64,000 bases of DNA from Thermococcaceae archaeon (GTDB lineage: Archaea > Methanobacteriota_B > Thermococci > Thermococcales > Thermococcaceae): contig JASGLT010000001.1 in the NCBI GenBank assembly GCA_030156945.1, positions 62,001 through 126,000 on the forward strand. Direction: 5' to 3'. Position 1 is the stretch's first letter; each line of letters starts with the position of its first letter. The notes below the pieces were generated by a model. That model worked only from the letters and a program-made list of their open reading frames with translations. It did not search any database and was not told the DNA's origin. Of this stretch, positions 463 through 34,274 are shown one piece after another. A program made the translations under genes and the position numbers.

Positions 463-485
463 CAACCTTTGCTCCGCAAAGGTTG
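463..485. repeat. perfect hairpin CAACCTTTGC-TCC-GCAAAGGTTG
   Basis: A 10-bp perfect stem with a 3-nt loop, 2 bp after the GGGGGC/GCCCCC hairpin. The same stem, extended to 11 bp with a 2-nt loop, occurs at 53891-53914, again flanked by a GC-rich hairpin on the same relative side. Sharing of both the stem sequence and its neighbour argues for common descent rather than chance. Confidence 0.75.
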
Positions 486-607
486 ACCAAATTATTCCCT
501 CCTCAAATGAGGTCGAGTTTAGACAAGTTTTTCCTAAACCTACAAGGCTCTTTCTTGAGTGGAGAACACTTGCGAGGTGAGTTTTATGGTGGGCTTACAT
601 CTCTTTT

Positions 608-624
608 GACGCCCATAGGGCGTC
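608..624. repeat. hairpin GACGCCC-ATA-GGGCGTC followed by a T run
   Basis: A 7-bp stem with a 3-nt loop followed directly by TTTTTAATG. The counterpart at 53754-53768, read on the reverse strand, is GCGCCC-ATT-GGGCGC followed by TATTAAAAG. It begins 123 bp from the CAACCTTTGC hairpin in both copies. Hairpin plus T run also resembles an intrinsic terminator, but no gene on the plus strand ends here. Confidence 0.65.
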
Positions 625-801
625 TTTTTAATGTTAAACCTTAACTCTTAGAGCCAGTAAGAGGCGTTCTCACTTGATAACCTTTACTAAGTGAGCAGTG
701 GAAACACCCCAGCAAGAGGAGTAATTCAAAATAGTCAAGACTTTCCGCCAGCGCTTCCATCGGAAGCAAAGCTTCCGGGGTGTTGGGACAAAGTCCCAAC
801 A

Positions 802-817
802 TGCGAAGCAAAGGGCT
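802..817 (+). repeat. 16-bp direct repeat TGCGAAGCAAAGGGCT, copy A
   Basis: Exact 16-mer found again at 33709-33724 inside the mbhI-mbhJ insertion. Both copies are followed by a near-identical GATGG or CATATGG and lie at the edge of a non-coding element, so it may mark a conserved element end. Confidence 0.7.
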
Positions 818-873
818 GATGGTCAGGGGCCGATTAGCTCCTCATCGGGGGCCCTCAGGAACCTACCCTCACA

Positions 874-1347
874 TCATCCCAGCCCAAGCCATTCCCTAAT
901 CTCAAGGGGGATTATCCCGATCTTGGGAAACACGAGGAGAGCCTTGTTCTCCACAGCGTAAGCCGGAACGCAGGGTATCGCACCATAGGGCGTGGGGTAG
1001 CCCGGATCCGGCACCCAGTTGTTATCACCCCAAGTAACGAAGCATTTCTCAGTCTTATTCCCAAGCTTGACCTCCTCTATCCCCCTCACCCTGTGAATTA
1101 TCGGGTACTCGTAACCGGGTCGGGTGTAAACTACAACGTCCCCAACCTTTATCTCATCGATGTTGTTTTCATCAATGCCCTTCAAAAGAACCACGTCGCC
1201 CCTGTAGAAAACCGGCTCCATTGAGCCACTCACAACGATTACAAGGGGTTGATCTGTATGCAGCACAAATTTTAGGCCGTAATGTATCATGAACACGATG
1301 AGCACTGATGCGAGTATTACGTAAGCGTCCTTCTTCCACTCCTCCAT
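874..1347 (-). CDS. signal peptidase I, archaeal S26B type
   Basis: 157 aa. One N-terminal membrane helix (about residues 8-29) is followed by the catalytic box VSGSMEP (serine near 41), the RGDVVLLK strand, and YPIIHRVRG, whose histidine replaces the bacterial lysine as general base in archaeal and ER-type enzymes. A WGDNN box and a hydrophobic C terminus complete the fold. It removes signal peptides from exported proteins at the outer membrane face. Its start lies inside the upstream DUF531 gene (31-bp overlap), suggesting one transcript. A second, SipW-like peptidase is at 19990-20559, so this is probably the general enzyme. Confidence 0.9.
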   Translation of the reverse strand: MEEWKKDAYVILASVLIVFMIHYGLKFVLHTDQPLVIVVSGSMEPVFYRGDVVLLKGIDENNIDEIKVGDVVVYTRPGYEYPIIHRVRGIEEVKLGNKTEKCFVTWGDNNWVPDPGYPTPYGAIPCVPAYAVENKALLVFPKIGIIPLEIREWLGLG

Positions 1348-33212: not shown

Positions 33213-33560
33213 ATGTTAGGGTACTGGGACGCTCTCTACTTTGTCTTCGTCTTTATCATTGGCCTGATCCTGGCTTATCTGCTCGACAAGTGGGCCAAGA
33301 GAAGCGGAATGGGAACGAGGGAAACCGGAGATGGGACGAAGATATTCATCAGCGGCGAAGATCCGGACAGGATAATTCCCGGCTTCGAGCACCTTGAGGG
33401 TAACTACACAGGAAGGAACGTCATGTGGGGTCTAACCTACGCCCTCAAGAACTTCTTCGCCGTGCTCAGGAGAGACCACACAGGCCTGCTCACCGACTAT
33501 GCGAGCTACTTGGTGATAACGACGGCCTTCGTGCTCGGTGTTCTGTTAATCTGGGGGTGA
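33213..33560 (+). CDS. mbhI: membrane-bound hydrogenase subunit I
   Basis: 115 aa from the ATG at 33213 (MLGYWDALYFVFVFIIGL) after GGGAGGTG; the ORF track begins 9 bp earlier. One helix at each end and a soluble middle (TKIFISGEDPDRIIPGF). It bridges the antiporter arm to the hydrogenase arm. It ends LIWG-stop, and the same LIWG-stop coding sequence recurs 177 bp later at the end of the inserted element, so the next gene is displaced from its usual close position. Confidence 0.9.
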   Translation: MLGYWDALYFVFVFIIGLILAYLLDKWAKRSGMGTRETGDGTKIFISGEDPDRIIPGFEHLEGNYTGRNVMWGLTYALKNFFAVLRRDHTGLLTDYASYLVITTAFVLGVLLIWG

Positions 33561-33737
33561 ATGAGGGTGAAGCAACTTGATGAGGTTCGCATTCACTTCC
33601 CGTCCGAAGAACGGACCAAACGTGCGAACATTAAAAATGGTGCCAGTATGGGCCACTCTCGCTGGAAAGAAGAGGGTTTTGAGAGTGAAAATGTTTCCGC
33701 GAGCGCTTTGCGAAGCAAAGGGCTCATATGGGGGTGA
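33561..33737 (+). mobile_element. 177-bp insertion between mbhI and mbhJ, hairpin-element relative
   Basis: The 9-mer TGGGGGTGA occurs at 33552-33560 (end of mbhI) and again at 33729-33737, exactly 177 bp later, as a target-duplication-like pair. Between them lies non-mbh sequence containing a hairpin (AGCGCTTTGCGAAGCAAAG region) and the 16-mer TGCGAAGCAAAGGGCT (33709-33724) shared with 802-817. The unit is open as a 58-codon frame from the ATG at 33561 to its own LIWG-stop, but the composition is not protein-like. The right edge restores a GGGGGTGAGG ribosome site for mbhJ. No transposase; if mobile it is non-autonomous. Confidence 0.6.
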
Positions 33738-33743
33738 GGTAAG

Positions 33744-34274
33744 ATGGCGATAACCGTTCCCGCTAACCAAAACGAGCAGAAATCAAACCCATCGGAGCGC
33801 GAGAGGCTTGAAAAGAGGATAGCCCAGCTCTGCAGGTTCCTTGGCAGGTCACCCTGGGTCTTCCACATAAACAGCGGCTCGTGCAACGGCTGTGACATCG
33901 AGATAATAGCAGCTCTAACGCCGCGCTACGACGCTGAGCGCTTTGGAGTTAAGCTCGTCGGCAGCCCAAGACACACTGATATACTCCTCGTAACTGGGCC
34001 TGTAACCAACCAGAGCCTTGAGAGGGTTAAACTCGTCTACGAGCAGACGCCAGAGCCTAAAATAGTCATAGCCGTGGGAGCGTGCCCGACCGGCGGAAGC
34101 GTCTTCTACGAGAGCCCCTTCACGAACGCCCCGCTGGACAGGGTTATCCCCGTGGACGTTTATGTTCCCGGCTGCCCGCCGAGGCCTGAGGCCATTCTTC
34201 ACGGCGTCGTTCTAGCCTTGGAGAAGCTCGCCAGGATGATTAAGGGGGAGGTTCCTGAGGAGGTGAACGAGTGA
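33744..34274 (+). CDS. mbhJ: membrane-bound hydrogenase small subunit J
   Basis: 176 aa. NuoB-like: NSGSCNGCDIEIIAALTPRY, then VIAVGACPTGGSVF and VPGCPPRPEAI provide the four cysteines of the proximal 4Fe4S cluster. Its ribosome site GGGGGTGAGG is part of the right edge of the 177-bp insertion. Couples the NiFe site in MbhL to the ferredoxin-oxidizing MbhN. Overlaps mbhK. Confidence 0.94.
   Translation: MAITVPANQNEQKSNPSERERLEKRIAQLCRFLGRSPWVFHINSGSCNGCDIEIIAALTPRYDAERFGVKLVGSPRHTDILLVTGPVTNQSLERVKLVYEQTPEPKIVIAVGACPTGGSVFYESPFTNAPLDRVIPVDVYVPGCPPRPEAILHGVVLALEKLARMIKGEVPEEVNE

Follow-up and report, generated by a model that had tools for sequence, protein, structure and literature searches.

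Hairpin-bounded repeats of Thermococcus between the genes of the mbh operon: inserted small cistrons that probably keep translation unbroken

Palindromic repeats that enter coding DNA in frame are known from Rickettsia, where the elements are about 150 bp long (PMC10969869). Prokaryotic MITEs and REP-BIME sequences are likewise short, multi-copy and hairpin-bearing, encode no enzyme, and show compensatory changes in their stems and a conserved mismatch. On the side of translation, stop-start overlaps of the ATGA type couple neighbouring genes by termination-reinitiation (PMC6728339, PMC10666635). In Haloferax such overlapping gene pairs are enriched for subunits of complexes, and in H. volcanii no reinitiation takes place at the downstream gene across a gap of 22 nt (PMC10666635). 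A further system related to the locus described here is the palindrome TCCGCGAGAGCTCTGCGGA in the 37-bp mbhI/J spacer of T. kodakarensis, which was described as a non-coding stem-loop and whose disruption raised MbhL 1.74-fold, with specific H2 production little changed and not raised (PMC4549637).

The window, i.e. the whole stretch of 64,000 nucleotides that was analysed, holds an mbh operon on the plus strand in which mbhI (33213..33560) and mbhJ (33744..34274), the first gene of the hydrogenase module mbhJ-N, are set apart by 177 additional bp, while at the remaining mbh junctions within the window the genes overlap or have no more than 4 nt between them. The reading frame of mbhI ends in ...LLIWG-TGA, and its final 9 nt, TGGGGGTGA, comprise the stop codon and a Shine-Dalgarno-like sequence. 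This 9-mer forms a direct repeat on the plus strand with a left copy at 33552..33560 and a right copy at 33729..33737, a start-to-start distance of 177; in a 12-nt form from 33549 the repeat has one mismatch (ATCTGGGGGTGA vs ATATGGGGGTGA, 11/12 identical). The insert (33561..33737, plus strand) begins immediately 3' of the mbhI stop and is a single small cistron of 58 codons, MRVKQLDEVRIHFPSEERTKRANIKNGASMGHSRWKEEGFESENVSASALRSKGLIWG-stop. Both copies of TGGGGGTGA encode the end of L-I-W-G-stop, the second LIWG-stop closing the 58-codon ORF, and the right copy serves as the stop of the small cistron and as the Shine-Dalgarno-like sequence of mbhJ. All of this agrees with the initial annotation, which had read the bracketed 177 bp as an insertion that restores the end of mbhI and a ribosome site for mbhJ; the openness of the insert and its length in a multiple of three, pointed out there as well, turned out to matter. 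The cistron starts at +0 and stops 6 nt before mbhJ, a close abutment without a 4-nt overlap.

Within the insert, all on the plus strand, are a left compound hairpin (33585..33629) with the outer stem GTTCGC (33585-33590)/GCGAAC (33624-33629) and the inner stem GTCCG/CGGAC, a middle inverted repeat CACTCTC/GAGAGTG (33654..33687) that belongs to the window copy and is not conserved across the family, and a right-end hairpin (33695..33725) with the family signature TTCCGCGAGCGCTTTGCGAAGCAAAGGGCTC, an invariant G.G mismatch and an outer pair that is compensated between G-C and C-G. An exact second copy of the 16-mer at 33709-33724 lies at 802-817. For the spacer as a whole, a strong RNA fold was considered and dropped, because the MFE z-scores were only -1.8 and -1.5; the individual hairpins, not a global fold, carry the signal.

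The 9-mer by itself is weak evidence for an insertion. TGGGGGTGA occurs three times in the window vs 0.7 expected, a count equalled in 5 of 100 shuffles, it is the stop and Shine-Dalgarno ending of mbhI in many relatives, and the flanking-repeat score at the site (9.5) is barely above the local null of 9.0. The flanking repeat is present as initially annotated, but it does not prove a classical target duplication, since it coincides with the stop/SD motif and better duplications (18-52 bp) exist at mbhK/L and pyrB/I. The mbhI/J feature is nevertheless real, because at the same place relatives have a homologous spacer or else a junction that is empty and holds TGGGGGTGA only once.

For this comparison, mbhJ relatives were located in 93 of 94 Thermococcaceae genomes, and 80 mbh regions were fetched and their junctions measured. 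Long spacers of about 77-250 nt occurred only at the I/J, J/K and K/L junctions and only in the genus of the window as grouped by the tool; none was present at the A-H and M/N junctions of the 80 regions. The spacer is not private to the genome of the window. Homologous spacers are found at I/J, J/K and K/L in many Thermococcus, that of the window being 91% identical in G016 and 85% identical over 140 nt in G030. Their presence is patchy on the mbh protein tree, and the close sisters G058 and G059 differ. An exact-match scan of the genome collection returned matches in Thermococcaceae metagenome-assembled genomes only. An apparent 556-nt gap between mbhL and mbhM in L090 (G017) goes back to an apparent break in the mbhL frame, which is either a frameshift or a gene-calling artefact. 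In several mbh spacers (L088, L095, L098, L105, L106, L107, L109) the right hairpin contains a sub-insertion of 33-36 nt, GATCCGTCAAGGACGTTCGAACGATAGTGAGAACGG, that keeps the frame. It is found at different mbh junctions of one genome, which may reflect either homogenisation within the genome or a mobile piece of second order.

Judged by its sequence, the 177-bp spacer belongs to a family of hairpin-bounded repeats that most Thermococcus genomes contain and is not a one-off insert, as the shared 16-mer had led the initial annotation to propose. The right hairpin is nearly identical among copies (TTCCGCSAGCGCTT...AAGGGCTS). Operon copies have a left compound hairpin, at near-fixed spacing in most, with an outer stem that covaries among relatives between GTTCGC/GCGAAC and GTTCAC/GTGAAC. 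Of 29 distinct right hairpins, 19 have C-G and 10 have G-C as the outer pair, none has a mispair there, and inner pairs switch too. The G.G mismatch of the right stem is kept in 29/29 distinct sequences, including the right hairpin of the window copy (33701-33725), which suggests recognition by a protein or RNA. The signature TTCCGCVAGYGCT was detected in 60 of 61 genomes of the genus with up to 20 copies; counts mostly exceed those of the reversed-pattern control (0-2 per strand), and the own genome of the window has 17 right-end copies. A stricter right-end pattern had zero control matches and was present in 50 of the 74 family genomes of good quality; it was missing from the nine genomes of group g3, which we take to be Pyrococcus.

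The operon form of the element spans about 80-250 nt and encodes no enzyme. Spacer cistrons yielded no convincing match or family in Pfam/NCBIfam. With Rfam, sR36 alone reached the gathering score in the window and relaxed thresholds gave no element family either; at the gathering score there was also no element match in L187, L254, L102 and L030. In the literature examined, no description of a hairpin repeat, MITE or tRNA-linked element of Thermococcus was found, which does not prove absence. The Thermococcus family appears not to have been reported before; it has a preference for the 3' ends of tRNAs, and we would file it among the non-autonomous palindromic repeats adapting to a coding context, with no named family assigned. 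The window contains a second copy in the long non-operon form (463..822, plus strand). It has the left-end hairpin CAACCTTTGCTCCGCAAAGGTTG (463-485), its right end reads TTCCGCCAGCGCTT (743) ... AAGGGCTGATGG (811-822), the loop of this end holds two additional hairpins, and the copy abuts the sR36 C/D RNA gene (821-881, minus strand). Family copies adjoin sR36 likewise in G015 (L218) and G002 (L040).

The preference for tRNA genes is seen in 30 of 36 intact right ends, counted in G000 and parts of G003, G008, G010, G012 and G015, which abut the 3' CCA of an opposite-strand tRNA of one of many isotypes. The tRNA-linked copies are longer, have one more hairpin at the left end with AYCAAA behind it, and are frequently arranged in tandem; no target-site duplication was found at them. 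One tRNA-Ser site is filled in the own genome and elsewhere is empty or occupied by other hairpin sequence. Tandem copies of the own genome (L188, L190, L193, L195, L197) lie in several cases downstream of tRNA genes. In these copies the loop of the right end is replaced by the hairpin of the next unit, GAAGCTTTTNGAAAAAGCTTC-ACCAAA, as if new units entered between the old unit and the tRNA. Downstream of tRNA-Ser in L295, L297 and L303 it is a left-end-type hairpin, CAAACTTTGC..GCAAAGTTTG-ATCAAA, that abuts the CCA, so either end or orientation may face the tRNA.

The second class of sites consists of junctions between co-directional genes, namely mbhI/J, J/K and K/L, mbxL/M, pyrB/I and others. 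A profile of the mbh cistrons retrieved the mbxL/M junction, where 4-nt overlaps exist on both sides (-4/-4) in L254 and L268, and junctions in an FeS/FAD oxidoreductase operon, an M42-peptidase/TauE-like pair, an FAD-oxidoreductase pair and others, gene names outside mbh being taken from reading the sequences and not from a family search; the pyrB/I copy was found by DNA search. In mbh, 43 of 43 long spacers contain an ORF that opens close to or directly at the upstream stop and extends as far as the next start or beyond it. These small cistrons usually overlap or abut both neighbours, many of them with ATGA overlaps on both sides. K/L cistrons start at -4 and stop at +4 or +7 relative to the next start. 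All 18 K/L spacers are in one phase in spite of ten different lengths ranging from 109 to 250, while all 39 empty K/L junctions are in the other phase, as is expected if one extra ATGA-overlapping cistron was inserted. Because the ORFs were chosen as the longest near the upstream stop, their freedom from internal stops follows in part from that choice, whereas the reach to the next start and the constant phase do not; the phase and the control with tRNA-linked copies are the stronger tests, and since the spacer copies are related, the counts are not independent. The shortest ORFs belong to the reduced copies L101 and L102, which are I/J remnants. Empty I/J junctions mostly have 4-14 nt between the genes and no tight overlap. 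Coupling pressure should therefore be weaker at I/J than at J/K and K/L.

These data make it probable that the 177 bp are a copy of an enzyme-less, hairpin-bounded family whose operon copies survive only if the chain of translation stays unbroken. If a gap of 22 nt blocks reinitiation, an untranslated insert of 170 nt at mbhK/L would uncouple the catalytic subunits and an overlapping cistron would not. This argument is carried over from another archaeon and would be weaker for the I/J site of the window.

How the copies reached their sites was approached through empty and filled alleles. The empty junction L079 reads ...ATCTGGGGGTGAATGGAGATGgca with a single copy of the junction sequence; the filled L080 reads ...TGGGGGTGAATGGAGATG as in L079 before the element and has a second stop/SD/start behind it. 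Flanking repeats measure 18-19 bp at K/L in L081, L088 and L093, and those at pyrB/I in L038 are 18 bp long. At K/L in L121 and L125 they reach about 52 bp, and there the mbhK end itself is present twice. Overall only 26 of 43 copies have flanking repeats above a crude local null, and many others are short or decayed. Filled K/L alleles have an mbhK tail of their own, GGAKK, distinct from the displaced native tail. The empty K/L junctions L113 and L123 have the GGAKK tail usual for filled alleles and look like clean loss between flanking repeats, i.e. candidate excision scars.

An IS200/IS605 route, hinted at by insertion 3' of CCA and by the subterminal hairpins, was rejected because the own genome (G000) has no Y1 transposase; the gene is absent from it and 45 others and present in 15 of 61 genomes. 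Reverse transcription, for which the precise right ends, the apparently shortened 5' parts and the varying flanking repeats had spoken, was rejected because PF00078 was found in 0 of 61 genomes of the genus sample with a positive control. The Y1 search of the 61 genomes did not identify an autonomous partner sharing the ends of the element. Without an enzyme of its own or these enzymes in its genome, the copy fits the non-autonomous element that had been proposed. Family copies are also present in G007, presumably T. gammatolerans. That species was reported to be without transposase genes (PMC2718504).

As empty and filled alleles differ in the ends of the neighbouring genes, interspecies recombination may mimic insertion. 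Spread mainly by homologous recombination and gene conversion, both from species to species and among the junctions of one operon, would make the flanking repeats by-products and would do without transposition; the GGAKK tail of filled alleles, the occurrence of the same 36-nt internal insertion in right ends at different junctions (G056, G048, G047) and the lack of a resident Y1 transposase or reverse transcriptase in most genomes fit such a route. Yet the independent sites at mbx, pyr, M42-TauE and many tRNAs require a primary insertion route, and we are inclined to doubt that recombination was the main one. It is a rival for the route only and compatible with the coupling constraint.

The element may also affect expression. 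In G012, taken as T. kodakarensis on account of its 37-bp mbhI/J spacer, 22 of 24 nt of this spacer are identical with the right end of the element at the same junction, and its palindrome looks like a truncated right-end relic. By extension from the T. kodakarensis mutation, the full hairpin in the window probably lowers the output of mbhJ-N somewhat. One might then suppose that the element is kept because its hairpin regulates the ratio of mbhA-I (antiporter) to mbhJ-N (hydrogenase), with translation through it being secondary. Hairpins that are conserved and compensated, the position at the module boundary in the window, and the 1.74-fold rise of MbhL without higher specific H2 production upon disruption of the palindrome (PMC4549637) speak for this. 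On the other hand, the element is patchy among close relatives, is also found within the module, at J/K and K/L, and keeps the same hairpin at tRNA-linked sites where there is no operon to regulate, which makes a regulatory purpose rather unlikely. Unbroken translation stays the preferred reading of the operon copies. The earlier suggestion of a tuning of MbhI:MbhJ has gained indirect published support from T. kodakarensis (PMC4549637). The openness of the insert is no neutral accident; it is the rule in operon copies and rare in tRNA-linked ones.

If the peptide were the selected product, its sequence should be conserved. The dN/dS of the spacer peptides was 0.59-0.72 with flat divergence across codon positions, while mbhK, mbhL and mbhJ of the same genomes gave 0.13, 0.07 and 0.09 with an excess at third positions. 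Depending on the frame of the copy, the right hairpin is translated as FRERFAEQRA, FPRALCEAKGS or SASALRSKGL. Constant phase and openness together with a drifting peptide look like selection for unbroken translation that preserves stop-start coupling, and not for the peptide product. A true gene for a small protein, be it an accessory subunit of Mbh or an assembly peptide, that was duplicated at several junctions could draw on the N-terminal frame EV[RH]xHxxPEGRxxxxN, which is constant in I/J, J/K and K/L copies, on the cistron's own SD and start and on its recovery by the profile in other redox operons. However, the conserved motif coincides exactly with the left hairpin and is explicable by nucleic-acid structure, the C-terminal half is read in differing frames, presence is patchy (G058/G059), no Pfam/NCBIfam family was matched, and dN/dS near 0.65 with flat codon positions, vs 0.07-0.13 in the neighbours, gives no support for purifying selection on amino acids. 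A conserved small protein family was rejected on these grounds and a small protein gene is very improbable. The outcome that would have spoken against an insertion, a gene conserved in most relatives or a lack of copies elsewhere, did not occur: the peptide is barely conserved, presence is patchy and copies exist elsewhere. A plain neutral MITE/REP insertion with target-site duplication, open by chance or composition, would suit a hairpin-bounded repeat family with empty sites and flanking repeats but is scarcely credible, as only 3 of 30 tRNA-linked copies have an open sense frame over 171 nt vs all mbh copies and the K/L phase is conserved in 18/18.

We therefore favor the view that an enzyme-less repeat is tolerated in operons as long as it is translated. 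Copies would land in or between genes by a trans-acting or now lost route. An operon insert has an SD and a start codon at its head and forms stop, SD and start anew at its tail. Where an operon encodes a multisubunit complex, only inserts that sustain the flow of ribosomes from gene to gene by termination-reinitiation would survive, clean loss would be possible through recombination of the flanking repeats, and, one step further, a settled hairpin might modestly lower the output of the downstream hydrogenase module. Generic insertion plus selection do not account for the concentration of copies in mbh. A bolder interpretation, which we put forward tentatively and hold to be possible at best, is that the operon form is an insertable cistron: by duplicating the stop/SD/start of a junction it would join the termination-reinitiation chain without breaking it, and this would be a way to spread through overlapping essential operons and to shift subunit ratios between sister species via the hairpin. 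In essence the initial annotation was right in seeing an insertion that restores both ends; its interpretation as a whole is partly supported.

New here are the family with its preference for tRNA ends, the cistron rule that holds at operon junctions, and the connection with the palindrome of T. kodakarensis. Dozens of inserts occur only in the form that keeps translation unbroken, and they constitute a natural test, over many junctions and species, of the need for unbroken translation between overlapping genes in archaeal operons. An origin can be offered for a palindrome whose effect on hydrogenase levels is known from an archaeon open to genetic work. For annotation there is a warning, as small spacer ORFs look translated and yet are not conserved proteins.

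Compared with the known systems, Rickettsia palindromic elements extend one protein internally, whereas the Thermococcus element is a separate cistron between genes; it also differs from them in the repeated stop/SD/start on both sides and in belonging to a family that occurs beside tRNA genes as well. In contrast to MITEs and REP-BIME sequences, the Thermococcus family has no autonomous partner that was found, the Y1 gene is missing in most carriers, and the cistron rule at operon junctions was not found described in the literature examined. The T. kodakarensis mbhI/J palindrome was, in its 37-nt spacer, not recognised as a relic of a repeat family or cistron (PMC4549637). The ATGA coupling by termination-reinitiation resembles the stop-start overlaps at both ends of many inserted cistrons; PMC6728339 and PMC10666635 treat native gene pairs, while the Thermococcus case is one of inserted elements that fit the coupling rule.
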